Assembly (NCBI GenBank): GCA_040881665.1
Contig: JBBECT010000004.1
Location: forward strand, 382,303-446,302
Length of the DNA stretch: 64,000 nucleotides
Direction: 5' to 3'
From: Actinomycetota bacterium
GTDB taxonomy: Bacteria > Actinomycetota > UBA4738 > HRBIN12
In this document: positions 27,757-48,756 of the stretch, in pieces
Numbering within the stretch: the stretch's first letter is position 1
Layout of the letters: each line of letters starts with the position of its first letter
The notes under the pieces: generated by a model
Databases searched by the model: none
What the model was told of the DNA's origin: nothing
What the model saw: only the letters and a program-made list of their open reading frames with translations
Translations under genes and position numbers: made by a program

Positions 27757-27841
<85 letters not shown>

Positions 27842-28134: not shown

Positions 28135-28809
28135 TCATTGGTGGAACAGGCCCCGCTCGATCTCATGAATGTGGAGCACCTGGGTGGCAAACGCTTGTTC
28201 CTCGGCATCCGCCTTGCCCTCTACGATCCGCCTCGCCAGACGTGTGAGCAAGTCGACGACCTGCACCATCTCGACGTACTGGGAGTCTACGGTCGTCACG
28301 TTTCCGATTGGTTGCAGGTTCCAGTTGTTCTTGACGTAGTTCTCCAGGTTCACACGTTGGGACTGACTCATGCTCCATCGATCGAGAACAACGTCCAGGT
28401 CCTTCCCCCACTGCCTTCTTGCTCGGTGGCGCTCAAGCAGCAGCCGAATCTGGAAGTGCCGAAAGAGCGTGGTTTGCCCTGGTTGCAGGTACGGCCCTCT
28501 GTTCGCTTGATACTTGGCCTTGTTCATCCACGTCGCGGTTATCGCTACATCACCGTTGCCGACACACGCCCCCAGGTATCCCATCAACGACCGCCACTGC
28601 TGCGTCCGCGGGGACTTCACGAGCCCACCCCAGTCCTTGAATTCTCGGTTGACGCCGTGGAAGTAACGGAAGCTCGAAATGTGGGCCGTTATGTCCCGAT
28701 GCACGGCTTCGGACATGTGGGCCGCCGCGAGGATGTAAATCGGGTTTGCTCCTGGGAAGCCCGGGTCCCCCGATTCGTCAATAAACACATACTCACCCGA
28801 GCCACCCAT
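28135..28809 (-). CDS. DUF3800 family protein
   Basis: 224 aa from the ATG at 28809. The family hallmark EYVFIDESGDPGF is at residues 5-17, and a second acidic cluster (LDVVLDRWS, then DSQYVEMVQVVDLL) lies near the C-terminus. DUF3800 has an RNase H-like arrangement of acidic residues and is frequent on mobile elements and in defence islands; the biochemical activity is not established. It is the first gene inside attL, converging on the terminator. Confidence 0.82.
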   Translation of the reverse strand: MGGSGEYVFIDESGDPGFPGANPIYILAAAHMSEAVHRDITAHISSFRYFHGVNREFKDWGGLVKSPRTQQWRSLMGYLGACVGNGDVAITATWMNKAKYQANRGPYLQPGQTTLFRHFQIRLLLERHRARRQWGKDLDVVLDRWSMSQSQRVNLENYVKNNWNLQPIGNVTTVDSQYVEMVQVVDLLTRLARRIVEGKADAEEQAFATQVLHIHEIERGLFHQ

Positions 28810-28850
28810 GGCGGTGACCCTATCCGATACCGCCGTAGGGACGTTTCGGC

Positions 28851-29170
28851 GTGAGCTTGTGTGCGGAAGGCCGAGCTGCACAAGAAGCCCTGGCGCGGGA
28901 GATTTGCCCGAGTGCCCCACTTGATCCCGGGATCGCCCTCGCGGTGAAGCGGCTGCGCGATATGGGTATCCACACCACGGGGTCGTGCGAAGGGGGCCGG
29001 GTCACTCAGACCCGACAATCTGCTTCAGCGGCACCGCTCCTGACGGGTGGCGGGGGCTCTACGCAGCCCAAAACGATGCGGCTGCCGGTTGTTGCTCTGT
29101 CCCGTGTGTGGGAGATCGAACGCGGCGAAGCTTCGGGGCCATCGTGGGAAATGCGCTTCTCGCCGAGTGT
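28851..29170 (+). pseudogene. Frameshifted small mobile-element gene
   Basis: From the GTG at 28851 one frame reads APLDPGIALAVKRLRDMGIH then TTGSCEGG. The next frame continues GHSDPTICFSGTAPDGWRGL. The first frame resumes with LPVVALSRVWEIERGEASGP. Together these resemble a short protein common in actinobacterial prophages and integrated elements (LDPGI...SCEGGxGH...PTxxFxG...). Two compensating frameshifts inside about 110 bp mean a broken gene or base errors. Function unknown even when intact. Confidence 0.55.
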
Positions 29171-29595: not shown

Positions 29596-30612
29596 TTAGT
29601 CCGACGGGAAGTACACGCGGCGCAAGGGCACGAGAGCCTGAGCATCCGACTCCAGTCGGTCGTAGTACTCGACCACGAGGCTTCTGAGGCGATCCCCATC
29701 GATGAGCACTAGACGTTGTGAGGACGGGTGGAAGGCTACTTCCTTCGTAAATCCACCCGTCGATACAAACATTCCTCGCTCGCCTGTCCCCACATTGCCG
29801 GCCAGCTGAGCGACCTCTGGAGCGCCCGTCTTGGTGTTTGGACGAGCCTTGACCTGGACCTTCACCGGTTGCTCCAACCCGAGGGGATCACGAGAGGCGA
29901 CGATGTCCACGCCTTGGTCTGTCCCTGGAGGTGAGACCTGCGTGTGGAACCCCATCGCTTGCAATACTCCGGCGACGAGATCCTGCATCTCGTAGGCATC
30001 TAGGTGCGCGATTTTCGCCGAGATCAGTTCCTCGCTTCGGGACTGAAGGTCGGCAAGCAGATTATCCTCCGCGCCAGAGTCGCCAACATCTACGGCACCT
30101 ACGGTCCCCTCGTCCGACTCCGGCACAGGCTGGTTGTTCACAAGAGCCGTGAGCTCTCTGGGCCAACCCGGTTGGAACACGGTGGCCAGAGACCCGAGGC
30201 TGTACAGCACTCGCTTCGGGAGCAAATCGCGGCTTCGCCGTCCGAGCCATTCGACCTTGCGGTAGTGAAAGAAGCCGCCCACGATCGGTGTCTCGTGGAA
30301 CTCGTACGGGCTCGTCACTCTTCCGAAGAGGAGCTCTCGGGTTCCGGCGTCGGGCGTAATGACAAGATCGCCCACATCGATGTCGTGGGCGAAGCGGAAG
30401 AGTTGACCGGCACGTCCGGCGATTGTTCGGCGCGAGTCGCCATCGGACTGATTCTTCAAGCGCTCCTTGATCTCGTCGCTTGACAGCGATGCCAATGAAT
30501 GCGGGACGACTGTCCCGATTCCGACGAGGTCACGCTCCTCGAACTCGGACGCGTACTTGCCAGCCGTTCCCGCTCTCACGACCCATATGTCCAGAGCTGG
30601 GCTCCCGTCCAT
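29596..30612 (-). CDS. Mrr-family restriction endonuclease-like protein
   Basis: 338 aa from the ATG at 30612 (a TTG at 30642 is possible). The N-terminal half (DIWVVRAGTAGKYASEF, DLVGIG) looks like the sensor/EVE-like region found on Mrr-type proteins. The C-terminal half is a PD-(D/E)xK nuclease: Glu in DAYEMQDLVAGVLQAMGF, Asp in GTDQGVDIVA near 233 and QxK in VKVQVKAR near 252. Such enzymes usually cut modified foreign DNA (type IV restriction). It is encoded alone, without a methylase next to it, which fits type IV. Confidence 0.8.
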   Translation of the reverse strand: MDGSPALDIWVVRAGTAGKYASEFEERDLVGIGTVVPHSLASLSSDEIKERLKNQSDGDSRRTIAGRAGQLFRFAHDIDVGDLVITPDAGTRELLFGRVTSPYEFHETPIVGGFFHYRKVEWLGRRSRDLLPKRVLYSLGSLATVFQPGWPRELTALVNNQPVPESDEGTVGAVDVGDSGAEDNLLADLQSRSEELISAKIAHLDAYEMQDLVAGVLQAMGFHTQVSPPGTDQGVDIVASRDPLGLEQPVKVQVKARPNTKTGAPEVAQLAGNVGTGERGMFVSTGGFTKEVAFHPSSQRLVLIDGDRLRSLVVEYYDRLESDAQALVPLRRVYFPSD

Positions 30613-31108
30613 CAGTTGGTACTCTGCGACATCCGACCCCAACTAGGCAACGCAGCAGCTTGCGCGCACGGATGTGAATCAAGCCGGGTTTATCGGAGGC
30701 TCGGTTCTGTGTCCATCGGTCTCGTCGATCCTTGAGGGTCGACTTCCAGTACCCCCGAGCAATTCACGAGAGCGCATCAGGTAGGTGTTCGGTGAGATAC
30801 CTCAACTTTTTGAACTGGCGGACGACCGGTCGTAGTCGGCTGAGGATTGGTCCGAAGATGCTACGGATCTCCTCACTGTCGCCCACCGACGGGTTCACGA
30901 CTACGAGGCTCTCGAGGTCGTGATTGCTGACTAGCGCGACCCGGAACGATCGCGCGGTCGAAACGGTCGGCGACGACTTCATCCGGAACATCGTCCGCAT
31001 CCTGGCCGAGACCCAAGCGGGGTTCGCCGTGATCAGCCGAAGGCGTTCGTCGAGGTCGACCTGTCAGCCTAGGACGTGATCGGGGCGGGGTTTCCATAGC
31101 TTTGCCCC
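30613..31108. other. Gap in the element with no confident gene
   Basis: About 500 bp. On the plus strand, a piece ending near 31072 reads GDDFIRNIVRILAETQAGF and then, after one frameshift, a short stop-terminated tail; it may be the end of a lost gene. A 78-codon minus-strand frame (30764-31000) has no recognised motif. Nothing is called. Confidence 0.4.
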
Positions 31109-32157: not shown

Positions 32158-33294
32158 ATGACGGCAACGACAGGTGGCCGAAGAGGCAAGACGAATACAA
32201 ACATGGGCGCTGCCCGAATCGCAAAGATGGACGAGTTCTACACGCAGCTCACGGATGTGGAGAAGGAGCTCCGTCACTACAAGCCGCACTTCCGCGGCAA
32301 GGTCGTCTACTGCAATGCTGATGACCCCCGCGTCTCGGCGTTCTTCAAGTACTTCGCGCTCAACTTCGAGGCGCTTGGGCTCAAGAAGTTAATCACGACC
32401 TGCTACCGCAGCCAGGCGCCAGATCTGTTCAGCAAGAACAACTCTGACCACGCGGTGTTCCTTGAGTACGAGGGTGACAAAAACTCAAACCGCGTACCCG
32501 ACCCTGACGAGATTGAGGTTCTTCCTCTCACAGGGGACGGAGACTTTCGTTCGGAGGAGTGCATTAATCTGCTGAATCAGGCCGACATCATCGTGACGAA
32601 CCCTCCGTTCTCACTATTCCATCAGTACGTCTCTCAGTTGATCAAGCACGACAAGAAGTTCGCCATCATCGGCAACCCCAACGCCACCTCGTACAAGCAG
32701 ATCTTCCCGCTGATCAAAGATGGAAAACTGTGGTGGGGCGTCAAGCCGAGCGGCGGAGAGAATCAGTTCTTCGAGACGACCGATGCGTTCGCGCAGCGTG
32801 TTGCTGCCACGAAGCCGCAGGGTGCCTGGTGGCGAAGAGGGTCGAACGGCAAGATCCTGGTTGGGATGAAGACGGTCTGGTACACCAATCTCGACTTCCC
32901 AAAGCGTCATGTGGATCTAATCCTCTATCGCAAGTACAACCCGACCGATTATCCGTCGTACGACAACTTCAATGCCATCGAGGTCGGCAAGGTCAGCGAA
33001 ATCCCTGCTAACTACGACGGCGACATGGGCGTGCCGCTCACCTTCCTCGACAACTGGAATCCCGATCAGTTCGAGATTGTGGGAATCACTCAGTCGTGGG
33101 ACAAGTGCGCCACAAAGATCTACCCCGGACAGATTCAGGTGAGCGCGGACGGCTCCGAGAGTCAGGTGACCAAACTCAACGACGGCGCCGCTATCAAGGT
33201 GGCCGCGCCACCCGCCAATAAGACGTACTACAAGGTGGAAGGCGAGATGTTCGTAAAAGCGTACGCCCGCATCCTCATCCGCAGAAGGAAGTGA
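32158..33294 (+). CDS. EcoRI-family adenine-specific DNA methyltransferase
   Basis: 378 aa from the ATG at 32158 (GGGAGC upstream); a longer open frame has no site. It matches the EcoRI methylase family. Early VVYCNADDPRVSAFFKYFAL, the target-adenine motif IVTNPPFSLFH near residue 147, KFAIIGNPNA and KTVWYTNLDF are present. It should transfer methyl from S-adenosylmethionine to adenine N6 in a specific site. Codon use is clearly less GC-biased than in the host genes. One base separates its stop from the next gene, a DUF262-HNH protein, so the two form a unit. Confidence 0.88.
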   Translation: MTATTGGRRGKTNTNMGAARIAKMDEFYTQLTDVEKELRHYKPHFRGKVVYCNADDPRVSAFFKYFALNFEALGLKKLITTCYRSQAPDLFSKNNSDHAVFLEYEGDKNSNRVPDPDEIEVLPLTGDGDFRSEECINLLNQADIIVTNPPFSLFHQYVSQLIKHDKKFAIIGNPNATSYKQIFPLIKDGKLWWGVKPSGGENQFFETTDAFAQRVAATKPQGAWWRRGSNGKILVGMKTVWYTNLDFPKRHVDLILYRKYNPTDYPSYDNFNAIEVGKVSEIPANYDGDMGVPLTFLDNWNPDQFEIVGITQSWDKCATKIYPGQIQVSADGSESQVTKLNDGAAIKVAAPPANKTYYKVEGEMFVKAYARILIRRRK

Positions 33295-33295
33295 C

Positions 33296-34432
33296 ATGGA
33301 CATCGTTCCCGTCAAGGTCACAGTCCGTGACCTGACCAAGGATTACGTCGACAATGCCGAGCAGGGCGTCGCGGCCTACGGCGGCAAACTCGACGTACGG
33401 CCGCCGTATCAACGAGAGTTCGTGTACAAGGACGACCAGCGCGACGCAGTGATTGACACGATCACCAAGGGCTATCCGCTCAACACGATGTACTGGGCGG
33501 TGCGCGATGACGGGACTTTCGAGGTGATGGATGGGCAACAGCGCACCATCTCGATCGGCCAGTACGTGACTGGTGACTTCACCGTAGACGGTCGTGGGTT
33601 CAACAACCTTCAGGACGATGAACGGGCGAGGATCCTCGACTACGAGCTGACGGTCTACCAGTGCGAAGGCAAGGACTCCGAGAAACTCGATTGGTTCAGG
33701 ACGATCAACATCGCGGGCGTGGAGCTTAGCGACCAGGAACTTAGGAACGCGGTATACCACGGCAGTTGGGTAACCGACGCGAAGAAGCGGTTCTCCAAGC
33801 GCGGCTGCCCGGCCTACGGTATCGCCAGGGACTACCTCTCTGGTGAGATGAACCGGCAGAAGTGGCTCGAGACGGCCATCAAGTGGATCAATGACGGCAA
33901 GGTCGAGGAATACATGGCCGTGCATCAGCACGACCCGACGGCGATTGACCTGTGGAACTACTTTGCTTCGGTCATTGAGTGGGTCAAGACCACGTTTCCG
34001 ACCGTGCACCGAGAAATGAAGGGGTTGTCCTGGGGGCCGCTGTACAGCAAGTACAGCTCGACCAAGTTCGACCCCTCGGCGATGGACGCCGACGTCAGGA
34101 GGCTCCGTGCTGACTCCCAGGTGGAGAACAACAAGGGCATCTACGAGTACCTGCTCAGCGGCAAGACCGACACCAGACTGCTCTCCATCCGAGTATTCGA
34201 CGACAAGACGAAGGCGGCGAGGTATCAGCAGCAGACCACGATCGCAGAGGAAGCCGGCCCGTCGAATTGCCCGCTTTGTGCTGTCGGGAACAATGCCAAT
34301 CGAACTCGCATCTACGCCCAGGACGAGATGGACGCTGACCACGTGACCGCCTGGTCGAAGGGCGGGAACACCGACCTCAAGAACTGCCAGATGCTGTGCG
34401 TCACCCACAACCGAGCCAAGGGCAACAGATAG
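33296..34432 (+). CDS. DUF262-HNH nuclease, partner of the methyltransferase
   Basis: 378 aa. The DUF262 domain (about 10-200) has PPYQREFVYKDDQRDAVID and the ParB/Srx-like nucleotide-binding motif VMDGQQRTISIG near residue 78. The C-terminal HNH module (320-378) has CPLC, then DADHVTAWSKGG, CQMLC and THNRAKGNR: catalytic His and four structural Cys. DUF262 proteins include GmrS and BrxU, nucleotide-dependent restriction enzymes against modified phage DNA. Here the fused nuclease is HNH rather than DUF1524 and travels with a methylase. A two-gene restriction-modification role is inferred. Confidence 0.87.
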   Translation: MDIVPVKVTVRDLTKDYVDNAEQGVAAYGGKLDVRPPYQREFVYKDDQRDAVIDTITKGYPLNTMYWAVRDDGTFEVMDGQQRTISIGQYVTGDFTVDGRGFNNLQDDERARILDYELTVYQCEGKDSEKLDWFRTINIAGVELSDQELRNAVYHGSWVTDAKKRFSKRGCPAYGIARDYLSGEMNRQKWLETAIKWINDGKVEEYMAVHQHDPTAIDLWNYFASVIEWVKTTFPTVHREMKGLSWGPLYSKYSSTKFDPSAMDADVRRLRADSQVENNKGIYEYLLSGKTDTRLLSIRVFDDKTKAARYQQQTTIAEEAGPSNCPLCAVGNNANRTRIYAQDEMDADHVTAWSKGGNTDLKNCQMLCVTHNRAKGNR

Positions 34433-35145
34433 TCAAGCCGTGGCGAAGACGCCTCCGCCTACGTGCCGGGCGCATCGTGATGCCTGAGGGCACTGATTCG
34501 GCCAAGGCTCGACCATCGCGGGACTGTCGCTGCTTCTGGGAAGGTTCACGGCGGTTGTCGAGAGTAAGCGACCCGTGCTTTCTCGAATCTCCGCTCGCAT
34601 GGGCGACGATGGTGCGTGACTCAGACGGCTTGCCCGGGGTCGACCGGCAATCGATGTTCGTCGCCTGCCCGCGAAGCCTCGCCAATTCGGCTCGTCCTCC
34701 TGGCCGTTGGACTTCCAGTGGCCTTTCTTGCCCCAGAAGAGGCCTTCCCTTGACTTTGAGACGTCTTTCGGGCATCAGATGCCGGAAATGGATTCTCCCG
34801 GTCTCGGAGATACCTTCCGTGGCCAAGGAGACATGTCTCGTCCTACCGGTAGCCTTCGAGGGGAGCTGCAACGGTGTCAGAGGGGTCCCGTAGCCTCGCG
34901 CCGTGACCGAAGACCTCTACCTGCGGATCCTGTGGGCGCGATTCGACTTGTGGGCTGGCTGGGTGGAGCTTTACCCGGCGTGCTGCATCGCGCGCTACAC
35001 GTTCGAGCAACTTGTATCGCCCGGACGCCGCCTGGCGTTGGAGCGAGTAGGAACATTTCGCGGGCAAGGGTATGTGCCGTGCGGCATCCTGCACGGAAGT
35101 GGCCCCCGGGCGCTACCACGGACTCGAACGGGAGAGGGAGATCGC
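34433..35145. other. Gap after the methyltransferase/nuclease pair
   Basis: About 710 bp. Open frames exist on both strands (for example 34401-34871 minus and 34903 onward plus), but their composition looks like frame shadow and no motif is recognised. It probably contains the promoter for the OGG-fold gene. Confidence 0.4.
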
Positions 35146-35823
35146 ATGCTTGACGCGGATGAAGAAGCGCTGGCGCGTGCCCAGGCTAGCGTCGCTGGTA
35201 TCAGTGAAGAGGATGTAAGGAATCACGAGGTGACGTGGTCCTCTGATTGGCCTTCATTCCTCGACAAGAGCGAGTTGGAGGATCTCTCGCCAACCTACGC
35301 GAGACTCGCCGGATCGCTTCGCGGCACCATCAAGCGCGGGGACGTTTTCGACATTGCGAATGGTGTTGAGCTCGGGGAGTGGAGTGGGCGTGAACTGTTG
35401 CTGGCGACGTTCCTATGGGGGTTCGGAAATGCGAGCGCGAATCGCAGGGCGACGATCGTTCCGAAGGCACTTGCCCGAGAGAACGACGGTGTGATATCCC
35501 GCTTGTTCGAGCGCGCTCGGACTAGTACTGGAACAGACGCAGCCAGGGCGCTCCATCGTGGTGACCGCGACCACGTACCGGAACTCGGGATCGCGTTCGG
35601 TAGCAAGTTCCTTTACTTCGCGGGATTCGAGTCTGGAGGACCAGTTCCGCGCCCTCTTATCCTCGATGAGAAGGTCGCCGCCTTCCTTGGGCGCAAGCCT
35701 GACGTGGGTTGGTACGGGGAGTACCTCGAGCTCATGTACCGCTGGGCACAGACGCCTGGGTGGCGAGTGTCGCGCGTCGACGCCATCGAGATGGCGATGT
35801 TCCTGAGCCAGCAGAACCGTTAG
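35146..35823 (+). CDS. 8-oxoguanine glycosylase-fold (OGG-like) protein
   Basis: 225 aa from the ATG at 35146, which has GGGAGAGGGAG upstream; the open frame extends further back without support. The segment LGIAFGSKFLYFAGFE near residue 145-160 and PLILDEKVAAFLG match the OGG-fold family found in bacterial genomic islands. The Lys in GSKFLYF sits where OGG-type enzymes keep a helix-hairpin-helix region, but a catalytic Lys/Asp pair cannot be assigned with certainty. It may recognise or excise a base; a defence role is inferred from neighbours only. Confidence 0.6.
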   Translation: MLDADEEALARAQASVAGISEEDVRNHEVTWSSDWPSFLDKSELEDLSPTYARLAGSLRGTIKRGDVFDIANGVELGEWSGRELLLATFLWGFGNASANRRATIVPKALARENDGVISRLFERARTSTGTDAARALHRGDRDHVPELGIAFGSKFLYFAGFESGGPVPRPLILDEKVAAFLGRKPDVGWYGEYLELMYRWAQTPGWRVSRVDAIEMAMFLSQQNR

Positions 35824-36161: not shown

Positions 36162-36305
36162 ATGAGAAAGCGATACAAGCGCAAGCGTCACTCGTGCAAG
36201 GTGTGCAAGCCGGGGAAGATGGGTCTGTCTGTCAGGTGGTCACCGCGCGAAGAGTCGAGGCTCAAGGAGTTCGAGCGGCAGAAGACTCGCGGCGACTGGG
36301 ACTAG
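36162..36305 (+). CDS. Small basic zinc-finger-like protein
   Basis: 47 aa, MRKRYKRKRHSCKVCKPGKM at the start, with Cys12 and Cys15, then RWSPREESRLKEFERQK. Very short Lys/Arg-rich proteins of this pattern (SCxxCKPxK then KPKE...) are familiar from actinobacterial phages and prophages. It starts 3 nt after the previous stop. Its 3' end overlaps the end of the convergent nuclease gene by 44 nt. Confidence 0.6.
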   Translation: MRKRYKRKRHSCKVCKPGKMGLSVRWSPREESRLKEFERQKTRGDWD

Positions 36306-37272
36306 GTGCGCGAAACTGACTGCCCTTGCGTTGCTTTCGGCCCTCTTCGAGCCAGTCTTGCCCTTGTTTGCACTCGGGAAGGGCCGAGCAGAACGAGCAG
36401 TACGAGCCGGGACTAAGGTCGGCATCGCGTTCTCCAAACTCTAGTTGCGCCATCCGGCTGATCGCATCCACGGTCCGCCTCGAAGCGGACTCAATCGTTC
36501 CCTCGTCAACCGGCTGAGATCGGGGTGTGCTGCTATTCAAGTAGTAGGAGCCGATCATCACGGGTGGCACCCCGGTCTTGAGCAGTTCGAGCAGCGCGTA
36601 GAAGCGCAGATCCTCCATGTGCTCCTGATGTTCGTCGCCAGACTTGAGATCGACGATTGAAACAGGGTCCTGCCCAGGCCGACCCAACGCTAGGTCGTAC
36701 TTGCCGGCGAGGGTGATTGTCCCGTCGCAAAGGTCGACTCGAACTGAGCACTCGATCCGTGGTGTCATGCGCGCGTTGATCGGAGGAAAGTCGTTGAGGA
36801 AGGTGGTGAGCAGATTCGAAGAGTCAGCGACAAGCTCCGACTCACTTCCGGGATCACATTGGTTCAAGTAGTCGCTCAGACCATCATCCTTCGACTTCAA
36901 GGAGGTCAGGGCAATGTCAACGAGCTCCATCGGTGGCAGCTCACCGCGACGCGCCGTGAGCGTCATTTCGATCGCTTTGTGCACTAGCCGGCCTCTGGCC
37001 ACCGGGATTGACCATGTGAACTCATCGGGTGCGACCCACGAGCCCTCGCAGCGGAGCACGGCCGCGATGCGATGCTTGCTCGCGTAGAGGTTCCGGCCGG
37101 ACTGAGCGTGGCGACGGGCCAGTGGCCAAAGCCGCTCTTCCAGCTCAGCGCGTACCCGGTCGGCGAGGTCTGGTTCGTTCGAAGGCGCCGGGGATCGCGG
37201 TCGCAGCGACTCGTCCCACCCCAGCAGGTCCCGAACCACACGGAGCCGGTTGGGGTGCCATTCGACGCTCAT
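36262..37272 (-). CDS. PD-(D/E)xK nuclease (RecB/Cas4-like)
   Basis: 336 aa from the ATG at 37272, which has AGGAG close upstream on the minus strand (TCCTCCTATG). An early Cys (LRCEGSW near residue 75), HKAIE near 100, Asp in GKYDLAL near 205 and the nuclease core VSIVDLKSGDEHQEH near 215 (DxK) are seen. A C-terminal cluster YCSFCSALPEC near 305 completes a likely 4Fe-4S site together with the early Cys, as in Cas4/AddB-type enzymes. It is divergent from a HEAT-repeat gene, with 117 nt between. Role: exonuclease in repair or defence (inferred). Confidence 0.78.
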   Translation of the reverse strand: MSVEWHPNRLRVVRDLLGWDESLRPRSPAPSNEPDLADRVRAELEERLWPLARRHAQSGRNLYASKHRIAAVLRCEGSWVAPDEFTWSIPVARGRLVHKAIEMTLTARRGELPPMELVDIALTSLKSKDDGLSDYLNQCDPGSESELVADSSNLLTTFLNDFPPINARMTPRIECSVRVDLCDGTITLAGKYDLALGRPGQDPVSIVDLKSGDEHQEHMEDLRFYALLELLKTGVPPVMIGSYYLNSSTPRSQPVDEGTIESASRRTVDAISRMAQLEFGERDADLSPGSYCSFCSALPECKQGQDWLEEGRKQRKGSQFRAPSPSRRESSAARTP

Positions 37273-37389
37273 AGGAGGAGTGTTGCACGGGGGTGTGACA
37301 CGCTCAGATGGAGCGCGCTGGGCAAGCGCGATGATGTCAGCCCCCTGTGTTATCAACGTTGCCTACGCAGTCGCGGGAATGAGGGGTTG

Positions 37390-38895
37390 ATGGTCCCAAA
37401 CTCCAAGACGAAGTCGTTTGATGAACTCGTCCGGGATCTCGAGGCGCCCGAGAGCGGAACTCGATACTGGGCGATCCAGCACTTGTCGGAACGGGGAGCG
37501 CAGGCGGTCGAACCTCTTGTCGCCTTGCTCGATGGGCCACAGAAGACTGACTGGGGTGATGCTGCGCGGGCCCTAGGGAGGATCGGAGATCCCCGCGCTG
37601 TCCCGGTCCTCACACGCCTGTATGTCTCGGACACGAGCAGAGTAATGGGAAATCCGCATCGCGCCGCAGGGGAGGCGCTGCGCCGGATCGGCACCGCTGA
37701 ACTTCCCGTGTTGGTCTCGGCTCTTCGTGACGAGGATTCCTACAAGCGACAGGAAGCTGCCGATCTCATCGGCGATCTGCGTTTGGTGGACGCCTCCGCC
37801 GACCTTCTCGCCGTCGCCGCGAACACCGTCGCGGCAGTACGTGCTCTCGGACAGATCCGAGCGAACGCAGCTATTCCCTCGCTTGTCCGGATAGCGTCCA
37901 CCTCAGAGGAAGAGTTCATGCGCGTGGCGGCGGTGAGCTCCTTGGGAAAGCTCGGGAACCCAACTGCATCCAGTGTCTTGGTCTCGGCCTTATCCGACTC
38001 CTCTGAGCGCGTCCGGAGTTCAGCGGTGCTTGCGCTGAAGGCGATGCCCACTGACGCAGTTCTCGATGCGATCCGGGGGCGGCTCACCGACGAGGCGGTG
38101 ACTGTTCGGGCGAGCGCGGTGGAGGTCCTCGGAGAGATTGACCCGGCGGGTAGTTTCGCCAACTTGGTCGCGGCGACGAACGATGCTGAGCCTTCAGTGA
38201 GGCGCGCAGCGTGGCGGGCTCTCCAGTCTGTTGCGGACCCCGATTTGATCGAGCGTGCCGCGGCCCTGTCTGAAGAGTTCCGGATTGGAATGCTTCCTCG
38301 GTTCGAGAATGCGCTGCGGGCAGAGGGGGTGGGTTCGGATCAAGGGGGGTTCGCACTCGCGGACTGGATGCCCTTGTCAAACGTCTGGGAGGGGCTTCAG
38401 GAGCCGGTCGAAGGAGAAGACGAGAGCGAACCAGAAACGTCGTGGCTTGTCGCGAAGGCAGCGCGCATGATTGGAGCCACTCCTGAACTCGTGCTTACGG
38501 TGGGCAACCTGAGCTCTCGCACGAGCGGGGTTTGGTCGCTGTGGACGTTCGATCTGGGTCAGCTCGCTGTCCTCGTGTACGAAGAGGATGAGGCTGAGGA
38601 ACTGTGGGCTGTCGGGGCATGGCCTCGCGGCACAGGCCAGGCGGCGATCGAGGAATGCTTCATCCAGGTGTGTGAGCGATTCGGAGGCGCGATCTTCTTC
38701 GGGGCTGACGACGTCCCCATCGTGAACGAGCCGCTCAGCGCCGACCTGCTGCGGGTCGGACTTGTGAGCGCAGTCGAGAGTGATGACGCGTTGTTCGCAC
38801 GCATCCTGGAACGGCTCGACATGGCCGAAGGAACCGATCGCGGCCAAGCTGCTCGTGAACTCTGGCGCGTCATTTCTTCGGACGCGGGCTGTTAG
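37390..38895 (+). CDS. HEAT-repeat protein
   Basis: 501 aa from the ATG at 37390. Residues 10-300 hold seven or eight HEAT/PBS-lyase-type helical repeats. Clear ones are RYWAIQHLSERGAQAVEPLV, AARALGRIGDPRAVPVL, MRVAAVSSLGKLGNPTAS, VRSSAVLALKAM and VRRAAWRALQSV. The C-terminal 200 residues form an unrecognised acidic domain (SLWTFDLGQLAVLVYEEDE). It is divergent from the RecB-like nuclease, and a shared promoter region suggests joint control. It probably serves as a protein scaffold; no catalytic motif seen. Confidence 0.75.
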   Translation: MVPNSKTKSFDELVRDLEAPESGTRYWAIQHLSERGAQAVEPLVALLDGPQKTDWGDAARALGRIGDPRAVPVLTRLYVSDTSRVMGNPHRAAGEALRRIGTAELPVLVSALRDEDSYKRQEAADLIGDLRLVDASADLLAVAANTVAAVRALGQIRANAAIPSLVRIASTSEEEFMRVAAVSSLGKLGNPTASSVLVSALSDSSERVRSSAVLALKAMPTDAVLDAIRGRLTDEAVTVRASAVEVLGEIDPAGSFANLVAATNDAEPSVRRAAWRALQSVADPDLIERAAALSEEFRIGMLPRFENALRAEGVGSDQGGFALADWMPLSNVWEGLQEPVEGEDESEPETSWLVAKAARMIGATPELVLTVGNLSSRTSGVWSLWTFDLGQLAVLVYEEDEAEELWAVGAWPRGTGQAAIEECFIQVCERFGGAIFFGADDVPIVNEPLSADLLRVGLVSAVESDDALFARILERLDMAEGTDRGQAARELWRVISSDAGC

Positions 38896-43027: not shown

Positions 43028-45340
43028 TCACCGGCTCCACCGATCGATCGCTTCCCGGATGTCGGCCGTTGCGTACCCGCGTTTCGTGTTGTGGTCGAAG
43101 CGACCCGGTCGAACGCCGAACTCCCTGAGCAGGTCGGCGAGCTTCTTTGCGTTGAGTCCCTGTCCGTTGCGAAGGTGGGGCCAGGGCCGTTCCTCCAGGG
43201 AGCTGAGACGAGCCAGCAGCGTGTCGGTTCCGAGATGGGTCGCGCTGGCGATCGGCTCCTCCTCGAACAGATCCTGAAGGTCCTCGAGGAGCATCCCTCC
43301 GAGATCGTTGGCGCCATGCTGCCCCTCTCTCGTTGTCAGCGCAACGGCGGCCGTCCGAAGGCGCGAAGGCCAATCGGCACCAATCATCTCGCCCACGACG
43401 AAAAGAGGCTCCCAGCAGTCCTGGGTCCGATCCGACATCCCCTCCGGGAACTGTGGTTCCAGGTCGAAGCCGTCCGCGTTGTCAGATACCCACCGCTCGG
43501 CCTTGCGCTTCCACTCGGTCGCCTGCAGGCGCAGCTGCTCGCGCTGGCGTCTCGCATAGCGTTCGGCTTCTTCGCCGCGCTTCTTGCGCACCATCCTTAT
43601 CTCGATCGATCGACTCGCGATCGTGTCGGGGATCCTCCCGATGCCAGCAAGCGCCTTCGGGCAATACGGGTCGTAGGTGGCGGGGCTCATCGAACCGTCG
43701 GGCTGGGGATCCATTCGGAGGATCGGCTTATCCCTTGTATAGCCGTTGTTCAGCACTTGTCGGACCGCCTCGCTCGAGTCGCTGTTGAACTTGAAGATGG
43801 TGTCGACCTCGTCGATGAGCAGGGTCGGCTTGAAGGCCTCGACCGCCCGATATAGGACGGCCGCCGAGAGCCCGCCAGCGAACAGGGCCCGTCGGGAGAA
43901 TTCCTCGAGGATCTCGAGCAGACGGGTCTTCCCGCTCATGAGCGACGGCGCGGTGACGTGCAGGTAGGCGGTCGTGGGGAACTGGTCGTAGATGAAGGTG
44001 TGTACGACCCAGGCGGCCAAGACATCGTAGACGTAGTCGTCGGGGACGAACACAAACCGCTGCAAAGCGCTCCGCGCTTCTTCGATGAGTTCGAGACCGT
44101 CAACGCTCTCCGGCCACGGATCGCATGTGGCTAGGCGCTCAGCCACCTCCGCGTACTCGTGTTCGATGGCTACCCGCGGCGCGGTCCTGATGAACGCGTC
44201 GGCGATCCTGACGCTGTGCCCCGCTTGCTTCAGTTGCGCCGCGAGCCTGTCCCGGATCAACAAGGCGGTCAACTCGTCCGAGGGAACCGGGGGGAGTTCG
44301 CGGAGAGTTCGCTCGAGCTCTACCTGATCCATGCCGGCGCGTATCGAGCCGAGAACGCGCACGACATCCTCGCGCTCCAGCCAGTGAGCGTCTGTCCCGG
44401 TCTGCCCGCGTTCGCGTTCAGCCTGCTCGACAAGTTCATCCCAGGAGGGCGGGGGGTCCGCCCACCCCCACGCGTCGCGCACGAGCACTTCGAAGTCTTC
44501 CGCGTCGTCGTTGCGGTGCGAGGGGCTCGTCAGCAGGTCCGAGGCGGCCTCGCAGAACCTGACCCAAGCATCCTCCGACCAGTACCAGCGGTTGCGCACC
44601 CACCCTAGGAACTGTGCCAGCCCGTCGTGCCGGCCCGGGCGCGTGTACATGGTCCAGTTCCGCCCGGGAGCGGATTCGAGCGTCCTTACTATTCCCGCGT
44701 TGGCTAGCGCTCTGTGGTAGGCGGCCCCCCACGTGTGCCGCTCGTCGGTGATGCCGAGCTCGGTCGACTTCTCCTCTCGAGTGGCGTGCTTCCACACCTC
44801 GATCTGCGATTCGGGGATCGGCCAGTCTCCGATCTCCAGATTCTCAAGGACCTCGTACCGGCCGGGATGGGGCTCCTCCTCTCCGAGGACGGAGCCGGCG
44901 GCCACAACCAGTCCGCCGGCGCAGCGAATGTCGAGGCCCGGAAGGAACCCGACGCGATTTCGCTGGTCCGTCTGGACCCGGAAGTAGCGATGCTCGCCGC
45001 CCGACGGGGTGCGGACGGCCAGGGTCCGGGGAAGTTCGTAGCCATCGGCCACGATCCTGTCCAACGAAGCGAATCCGTCCTCACCCTTCACGTCGATATC
45101 GAGGACGAGCAGGCCGTTCCCCGTCCTGATGCCGACGTTGGCTGTCGGATTCTGTTTCCAGAGCCGGTCGATGTCGGTTCGATCGGTGGTCGCCTCTTTC
45201 TGCCAGTCGGAGTGGAGGGGGACCTTGCGGCCCGGCCGCAGCGGGAAGACCGATCCCCACTCCGCTGCGTGCTGAGCGGCCGCGGACGGCGGCGTCTCGA
45301 GGCGCTCGTTTCCCCGCGGGTCTGTTTGATCCGTGTTCAA
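43028..45340 (-). CDS. AEP primase/polymerase fused to DUF3631 ATPase
   Basis: 770 aa from a TTG at 45340 (AAAGGAAAC upstream). N-terminal prim-pol domain: GSVFPLRPGRKVP, NVGIRTG, metal-binding LDIDVKGEDG near 82, GGEHRYFR near 115 and GGLVVAAGS. A linker follows. The C-terminal ATPase has Walker A SLMSGKTRLLEIL near 467, Walker B TLLIDEVD near 508 and a DUF3631 segment (ALAGIGRIPDTIASRSIEI). It should prime and unwind DNA to replicate the excised element. This architecture is common to AICEs, plasmids and satellites of actinobacteria. Confidence 0.9.
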   Translation of the reverse strand: MNTDQTDPRGNERLETPPSAAAQHAAEWGSVFPLRPGRKVPLHSDWQKEATTDRTDIDRLWKQNPTANVGIRTGNGLLVLDIDVKGEDGFASLDRIVADGYELPRTLAVRTPSGGEHRYFRVQTDQRNRVGFLPGLDIRCAGGLVVAAGSVLGEEEPHPGRYEVLENLEIGDWPIPESQIEVWKHATREEKSTELGITDERHTWGAAYHRALANAGIVRTLESAPGRNWTMYTRPGRHDGLAQFLGWVRNRWYWSEDAWVRFCEAASDLLTSPSHRNDDAEDFEVLVRDAWGWADPPPSWDELVEQAERERGQTGTDAHWLEREDVVRVLGSIRAGMDQVELERTLRELPPVPSDELTALLIRDRLAAQLKQAGHSVRIADAFIRTAPRVAIEHEYAEVAERLATCDPWPESVDGLELIEEARSALQRFVFVPDDYVYDVLAAWVVHTFIYDQFPTTAYLHVTAPSLMSGKTRLLEILEEFSRRALFAGGLSAAVLYRAVEAFKPTLLIDEVDTIFKFNSDSSEAVRQVLNNGYTRDKPILRMDPQPDGSMSPATYDPYCPKALAGIGRIPDTIASRSIEIRMVRKKRGEEAERYARRQREQLRLQATEWKRKAERWVSDNADGFDLEPQFPEGMSDRTQDCWEPLFVVGEMIGADWPSRLRTAAVALTTREGQHGANDLGGMLLEDLQDLFEEEPIASATHLGTDTLLARLSSLEERPWPHLRNGQGLNAKKLADLLREFGVRPGRFDHNTKRGYATADIREAIDRWSR

Positions 45341-46101: not shown

Positions 46102-46799
46102 TCACGGTCGGGGACTCGGCGCGCTCCGGTCGTCCTCACCCCCCAACGCGAGGTCCACCGCCGCCATCGCCTGGGCCGAGGTCCCCGGGAGGAGGTGGCT
46201 GTAGATGTTCAAGGTGGTCGAGGGTTGGGAGTGCCCGAGCGCCCTGGAGACGATCGTCACCGGAACGCCGGCGGTTAGGGCGAGGCTCGCGAAGGTGTGC
46301 CTCAGATCGTGAAGGCGCCCCGGCCGAACGCCGGCCCGTCGAACCGCCTTCTGAAACTCCCTCGAGGCCGTGCCCGGCGACAGGGGGGCGACGCCGTCGG
46401 GTCCCGTGAACGTCAGGTCCCCGAACGATCCGGGTCGCTTCCCGGATACCAGGCGTTCCTCTGTTTGGAGATGCCTGGCCGTCACGAGGGTCTCGAGGAC
46501 CGACGGCGGAGCGTCGACAGTTCGTCGGGACTGGGGCGTCTTCGGGGAGAGGACGTCGCCTCGAGGAGATCTCCCAGCGAGCCAGCCTCGTCTCGGATCC
46601 CTCGTCGGGTTAGCGCGAGCTGTTCGCCGACCCACGCCCGGGCGTCGCGCTCGGTCGCGAACCCCTTCCGAACGACGGTACGGCGGCTCCCGTCGGGGCC
46701 GGAGGGCGCGGGACACCACGCATCCCACACCGTCCGGCGCCCGTCGGAGCGCGGCCGCTTCATCTTGCGCTTCCGGACGTGGCCGCGGGCCACCTGCAC
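46102..46799 (-). pseudogene. Tyrosine integrase with internal deletion
   Basis: The N-terminal frame (from about 46799) reads RKRKMKRPRSDGRRTVWDAW then a GFATERDARAWVGEQL block, the usual arm-binding domain. Near 46565 the frame changes and the text jumps to SPKTPQSRRTV and the C-terminal catalytic part. There LHDLRHTFASLAL (HxxR), ALGHSQ (His) and NIYSHLLP (Tyr) are intact. About 170 residues are missing, including the core-binding domain and the first catalytic Arg. A full integrase would be near 400 residues; here there are about 230 codons in two frames. It cannot be active as it stands. Confidence 0.85.
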
Positions 46800-46878
46800 C
46801 TCCTCGGGTCTCTCCCCAAAAAAGCACAGGGTGATGACCAGGGACCAGCCGGTTGCTTACAGCGAACTGGTCGTTGGA

Positions 46879-48703: not shown

Positions 48704-48756
48704 TTCAGGTTCCTGTGTCCGAAAGGACGTGGGGGTTCAACTCCCCCCTCGCCCAC
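48704..48756 (+). repeat. attR: second copy of the 53-bp core
   Basis: Identical to 27789-27841. Only the tRNA 3' part is present (from the anticodon loop); the sequence before it is unrelated to tRNA, so this copy does not encode a tRNA. Confidence 0.92.

Follow-up and report, generated by a model that had tools for sequence, protein, structure and literature searches.

An EcoRI-family methylase with exchangeable sequence blocks, coupled to a constant DUF262-HNH nuclease: a candidate methylase-directed restriction-modification system

The EcoRI endonuclease reads its target, GAATTC, itself. In Type III systems, specificity is instead given to a conserved, nucleotide-dependent nuclease subunit by a methylase subunit with an exchangeable recognition segment. 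Nucleotide-linked gating of cleavage by a DUF262 domain has been reported for GmrSD, BrxU, and SspE (PMC10952713, PMC12707154), and SspE, in which DUF262 is joined to a His-Me nuclease, acts together with a modification module (PMC10952713). In BREX, the methyltransferase PglX is termed a specificity factor in the title of PMC11341690. Here, we analyze a locus in a 64,000-nucleotide stretch of contig JBBECT010000004.1 from an Actinomycetota bacterium (hereafter, the window), where an EcoRI-family methylase gene is followed by the gene for a DUF262-HNH nuclease, and compare it with related loci in genomes, plasmids, and phages.

The preliminary description of the locus had reported two genes 1 bp apart, and both open reading frames are indeed present, separated by the single base 33295 (Table 1). 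The assignment of the first gene as having an EcoRI-methylase core with an NPPF motif is borne out by a match to PF13651 (EcoRI_methylase) across its whole length, and that of the second, as a DUF262 protein with a four-Cys HNH module, by its matches to GmrSD_N/DUF262 and HNH. The Cys residues (325, 328, 364, and 368) are conserved, as are D348-H349, N363, and N372; among 179 aligned nucleases, H349 is invariant, and D348 and N363 are each found in 178. The gene beside the methylase thus encodes a DUF262-HNH protein, not an EcoRI-family endonuclease, and this protein consists of DUF262 and HNH only, with no Res helicase motor or PD-(D/E)XK nuclease; the HNH module is of the PF01844/PF14279 type, and DUF1524 (PF07510), the C-terminal domain of GmrSD, is absent. 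For the methylase, 32203 is an alternative start to 32158: both the homologs and the Pfam match set in near residue 16, and the model is poor over residues 1–16. AlphaFold models of the nuclease and the methylase have mean pLDDT values of 90.7 and 89.4, respectively. BrxU is the best PDB match of the nuclease model, followed by ParB- and sulfiredoxin-fold nucleotide-binding proteins and the Gme HNH nickase, consistent with a DUF262 domain joined to an HNH module; a comparison of the methylase model with the PDB gave no significant structural match.

Table 1. Features of the gene pair and of the island that carries it (positions in the window)
Feature	Position	Strand	Evidence or remark
tRNA-Leu(CAG)	27757-27841		
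attL, 3' part of tRNA-Leu(CAG), left island end	27789..27841	+	53-bp perfect direct repeat with 48704-48756
EcoRI-family N6-adenine DNA methyltransferase P0001, 378 aa	32158..33294	+	PF13651 3e-118; PADLOC MTase_II 4e-105
Methylase catalytic motif NPPF, residues 148-151	32599..32610	+	each position kept in 184-185 of 185 aligned methylases
V1, hypervariable exchanged methylase block, putative target-recognition segment	32719..32898	+	about residues 188-247
V2, second hypervariable exchanged methylase block	33079..33213	+	about residues 308-352
DUF262-HNH nuclease P0002, 378 aa	33296..34432	+	PF03235 1.9e-20; PF01844 8.7e-7; PADLOC REase_II 4e-120, full length
DGQQR nucleotide-pocket motif of DUF262, residues 79-83	33530..33544	+	each position kept in 178-179 of 179 nucleases
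HNH module with four Cys, residues 325-378	34268..34429	+	PF01844 match at 340-378
Tyrosine integrase, only C-terminal part recognized, near right end	46102..46827	-	PF00589 3.6e-12
attR, second 53-bp repeat copy, right island end	48704..48756	+	perfect match to 27789-27841

The pair is housed in a 20.9-kb island in tRNA-Leu(CAG), with a GC content of 0.62 vs. 0.69 and 0.67 in the flanks, and the tyrosine integrase fragment is the probable integrase of the island. The same island carries an Mrr-type restriction endonuclease (29596-30642, minus strand; PADLOC candidate PDC-S02, 1e-78) and a Prim-Pol/DUF3631 protein (43028-45340, minus strand), and near the pair are genes for a DUF3800 protein (28135-28920, minus strand), a protein with an OGG-like glycosylase domain (34903-35823, plus strand), a PD-(D/E)XK nuclease (36262-37356, minus strand), and a HEAT-repeat protein (37072-38895, plus strand). 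Taken with the Mrr-type endonuclease and the nuclease-like neighbors, the pair looks like part of a defense island.

Profiles were built of both proteins and used to scan 160 loci that had been collected, by their nuclease only, from IMG/VR and from 84,980 species genomes. The methylase lies directly upstream of the nuclease, on the same strand, in 154 of the 154 related loci with enough upstream sequence, the two genes mostly overlapping or being a few bases apart; in the remaining six of the 160, the contig end cuts the upstream side. Recurrence on this scale rules out chance adjacency of the two genes, and it is, from the nuclease side, the co-occurrence that the preliminary description had proposed to look for. 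The hosts of the scanned pairs include candidate-phylum bacteria, archaea, and large phage contigs, and in nearly all plasmid records with a full-length nuclease homolog, an EcoRI-family methylase comes immediately before it, in pairs that span Actinomycetota, Bacillota, Pseudomonadota, and Bacteroidota. When sampling was instead led by PF13651, in samples of three phyla from which genomes picked for having the pair were excluded, about 26 intact methylases had a DUF262-HNH partner, two an EcoRI endonuclease, and four neither; DUF262-HNH, not EcoRI, is therefore the usual partner of the methylase family in these samples. The methylase and nuclease distance matrices correlate over 168 pairs (Mantel r 0.76; permutation maximum 0.15), and no methylase-nuclease fusion was found among the compared homologs. 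The sequence comparisons indicate that the pair is ancient and obligate, and such strict co-travel of both genes is as expected of a two-gene restriction-modification system.

Two arrangements with a further gene inside the pair were also seen. The 8.6-kb Enterococcus dispar plasmid pK205-4b-C (L022, 61-4699) has optrA, a gene for oxazolidinone/phenicol resistance, inserted between its methylase and nuclease genes, and in Phocaeicola-type loci (L031 and L176, 3082-3948), a gene like an annotated Bro-N domain protein occupies the same place.

The full pair is present on many viral contigs, and 27 of 78 viral methylase loci are without a detected nuclease. In Mycobacteriophage Marchy (L195, 1925-3153), an intact EcoRI-family methylase is followed by a short open reading frame that matches the first 47 nuclease residues only; phages Hami1 and Norz have the same short nuclease match. 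Retention of the methylase with loss of the nuclease is the kind of asymmetry that a restriction-modification system would lead one to expect.

Two blocks of the methylase, V1 (which follows the catalytic NPPF motif) and V2, behave differently from the rest of both proteins. In 34 pairs of systems whose nucleases are at least 0.85 identical, windows of 30 residues have a median identity of about 0.40 in V1 and 0.22–0.33 in V2 (the borders of both blocks being approximate), methylase windows outside V1 and V2 reach 0.7–0.97, and in none of the 34 pairs does any 30-residue nuclease window fall below 0.55. V1 and V2 are, in other words, swapped between systems whose nucleases share 85–100% identity. 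The median V1 identity is near 0.4 to 0.5 irrespective of nuclease similarity, and conversely, V1 can be 0.93–0.95 alike in systems with nucleases just 0.71–0.74 identical. The two blocks swap independently, since 29 of 208 pairs with a nuclease identity of at least 0.75 have the same V1 and a new V2, and 11 the reverse (these and the other pairwise counts are not phylogenetically independent). When the nucleases are clustered at ≥80% identity, 20 of the 29 clusters contain at least one V1 exchange; three of the 20 are loci with two methylases and one nuclease (L027, L144, and L162), in which two EcoRI-family methylases with differing V1 precede a single nuclease and the second of them may serve as additional protection. 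Within the DUF262-partnered systems, no association was found between V1 type and nuclease columns (mean z of 0.28 and no column above 5, compared with 8.45 for V1 columns). Given the methylase N terminus, V1 and nuclease identity have a partial correlation of 0.06.

At the DNA level, the exchanged blocks are bordered by near-identical sequence, a block pattern that rules out an alignment artifact as the source of the V1/V2 variability. In the pair L176/L177 (from IMG/VR, with contig names suggestive of isolate genomes), the nucleases are about 100% identical and the methylase N termini 0.99, with V1 at 0.44 and V2 at 0.28; L177 and the plasmid L031 have both blocks in common (V1 1.0, V2 0.95). 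Two copies within one genome (L227 and L244) have a nuclease identity of 0.97 and a V1 identity of 0.43, and two plasmids of one Pseudarthrobacter strain have values of 0.71 and 0.33, respectively. It should be noted that many of the compared loci are metagenomic and that the complete-plasmid and isolate-derived examples give the same pattern. No obvious silent cassettes of recognition blocks were found adjoining the genes, the extra methylase matches there being frame breaks or true two-methylase loci. The V1 type of the pair in the window is a singleton, with the nearest V1 at 0.49.

As a control, we used methylases of the same family that are partnered with the classical EcoRI endonuclease (a small set of nine systems, giving 36 pairs). 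Here, V1 never falls below 0.61 in any of the 36 pairs, and the median V1 identity exceeds the N-terminal median in every identity band (e.g., N terminus 0.59 and V1 0.78 at an endonuclease identity of 0.6–0.7). V1 is therefore fixed next to a nuclease with a specificity of its own and varies freely next to a DUF262-HNH protein. Because V1 is conserved with an EcoRI partner and, as noted above, can be almost unchanged between systems with much more diverged nucleases, the idea that it is merely a fast-evolving loop can be ruled out. A tree built on the non-variable part of the methylase unites the EcoRI-partnered sequences (six of the nine control systems were placed) in one clade with a support of 1.0, nested among the DUF262-partnered ones; the direction of this nesting is tentative because of the midpoint rooting. 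Five DUF262-partnered systems (L121, L138, L058, L044, and L233) have an EcoRI-type V1, with identities of 0.64–0.80 to two EcoRI-partnered methylases, and their closest nuclease relatives have other V1 types.

An apparent EcoRI-type V1, FIVPPDYELYGTEA, was also noted by eye in the methylase of the Enterococcus faecium plasmid pBN83-1 (L030, 2789-5143), where it would predict GAATTC methylation; a pair identical to this one is present in nine plasmid records. An M.EcoRI-like gene of Psychrobacter pA3H10 (40% identity) gave no protection against EcoRI, a result consistent with differing specificities or with inactivity. RAATTY/GAATTC methylation in Campylobacter has been attributed to a methylase with a FokI-like annotation and was set aside.

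We consider it likely that the two genes form a mobile restriction-modification system whose methylase recognizes the target on behalf of both activities, modification as well as restriction, the cutting being done by a DUF262-HNH nuclease under nucleotide control. In such a system, the EcoRI-family methylase would read its target via the exchangeable V1 and V2 and methylate adenine there, so that the host is protected; the nuclease, which would have no variable recognition region of its own, would be recruited or licensed by the methylase at unmethylated sites, where nucleotide binding or hydrolysis in the DGQQR pocket of DUF262 would gate cutting by the HNH module. Both the position of V1 and V2 and their exchange pattern suggest that they set the methylated sequence. 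If they do, independent reading of the site by the nuclease is out of the question, as the host would then cleave its own DNA; the block exchange supports a Type III-like arrangement in which the methylase would supply the recognition sequence of the nuclease. DUF262 probably gates cleavage through a nucleotide here too, by analogy with GmrSD, BrxU, and SspE; as for the pair as a whole, we infer complex formation, NTP gating, cleavage, and phage defense.

In a classical Type II system, the nuclease itself would read the short sequence of the methylase, which would only protect. PADLOC names the genes REase_II and MTase_II, the gene order and tight coupling are typical, and the methylase family also partners EcoRI, a true Type II enzyme. 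It is precisely the EcoRI control, however, that has the locked pattern expected of Type II, whereas the DUF262-HNH family does not, and exchange of V1 and V2 with no matching change in the nuclease would expose the host to its own enzyme, which makes a Type II arrangement unlikely in our view. The coordinated change of specificity regions that serves as the Type IIP criterion was not seen in the family, a comparison that is indirect in that it takes V1 and V2 to be the recognition segments. The same exchange of methylase blocks next to an unchanged nuclease contradicts the picture of an independently specific cutter and a protective methylase; for the two-gene restriction-modification system put forward in the preliminary description, support comes from the strict linkage and the near-invariant DUF262 and HNH residues.

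The main alternative is that the nuclease recognizes no sequence and that the methylase restrains or licenses it. It would then sense the state of DNA as GmrSD does (modification, phage DNA, or free ends), with the methylase as a self-marking partner or antitoxin that restrains it, the diversity of methylase motifs then serving to evade phage counter-methylation while the nuclease reads no site. Among DUF262 relatives, a response to DNA modification is described for GmrSD, BrxU, and SspE and is probable for Dazbog (PMC10952713, PMC12707154), no recognition segment is visible in the nuclease, and the retention of the methylase by phages that have lost the nuclease, as in Marchy and the viral loci counted above, would fit as well. 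Both the obligate pairing with a single methylase family and the strong co-inheritance with its non-variable part nevertheless favor a direct functional link to the methylase, and we hold a pure sensor to be quite unlikely. Degradation or inactivity of this particular copy seems very improbable: both open reading frames are intact and full length, every near-invariant residue is present, and both proteins model with high confidence, even though the integrated element has only a partly recognizable integrase and broken methylase or nuclease copies are known at other loci.

Beyond this locus, we lean slightly toward a wider reading of methylase-directed restriction, namely, that it constitutes a widespread, unrecognized restriction-modification type in which the methylase guides a constant DUF262-HNH nuclease, EcoRI being a derived offshoot with an independent endonuclease and a frozen recognition block. 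The pair had initially been put forward as the best candidate for an undescribed system, a claim not supported as worded, since PADLOC already matches both the nuclease (over its full length) and the methylase. A system of the Treponema prophage T320AP1, classed by PADLOC as RM type II, has a methylase 67.8% identical to the Alysiella crassa "modification methylase EcoRI" (PMC11144348); it probably belongs to the DUF262-HNH/EcoRI-methylase family and was not analyzed in that paper. With PADLOC detecting both genes and T320AP1 a probable member, the two-gene arrangement itself is already represented in databases. In open-access full text, we found no paper describing DUF262-HNH beside an EcoRI-family methylase as a system, nor the exchange pattern, and the open-access papers that combine both terms concern GmrSD/BrxU or mention them incidentally; the origin of the Type II models was not found in the PADLOC paper. 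There is a substantial chance that the pair deserves a restriction-modification type of its own. If restriction is indeed directed by the methylase, a system filed as ordinary Type II would have a different design, in which two swappable segments retarget a small methylase that steers a constant nuclease of ∼378 residues; the classification by defense-finding tools would change for a family whose carriers among genomes, plasmids, and phages number at least in the hundreds; EcoRI would gain an evolutionary context; and a simple two-gene platform would be at hand in which cutting specificity follows methylase specificity. Methylase-directed restriction predicts that the same nuclease combined with different V1/V2 alleles will have different motifs methylated and restricted and that EcoRI-type V1 alleles will lead to methylation of GAATTC or a close relative.

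Among known systems, EcoRI (R.EcoRI and M.EcoRI) shares the methylase family, P0001 being ∼48% identical over the core to the EcoRI-partnered methylase found on E. coli plasmids, and is likewise two-gene, tightly linked, and plasmid-borne; it differs in that its endonuclease lies upstream of the methylase, whereas here an unrelated DUF262-HNH nuclease lies downstream, and in its locked V1, a block that the DUF262-HNH family exchanges freely. The Type IV enzymes GmrSD and BrxU, the latter the best structural match, have the same layout of an N-terminal DUF262 domain with DGQQR and a C-terminal HNH-fold nuclease, but the nuclease described here is shorter (378 vs. 587 aa), has a PF01844 HNH rather than DUF1524, always comes with its own methylase, and is presumably not modification dependent. 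SspABCD-SspE and BREX are larger multi-gene systems; Ssp uses phosphorothioation, not adenine methylation, and BREX has no DUF262-HNH cutter as an obligate partner. The PADLOC models MTase_II (PDLC03297) and REase_II (PDLC03418) match both genes, so that the family is already listed as Type II, but this label implies an independently recognizing endonuclease, against which the exchange pattern argues. With the Type III systems (Mod and Res), the pair has in common an exchangeable methylase segment that apparently confers specificity on a conserved nuclease, although it contains neither a helicase nor a Type III Mod and both of its components come from different families. The simplest reading is that methylase specificity serves both activities, as in Type I and Type III, with unrelated components.
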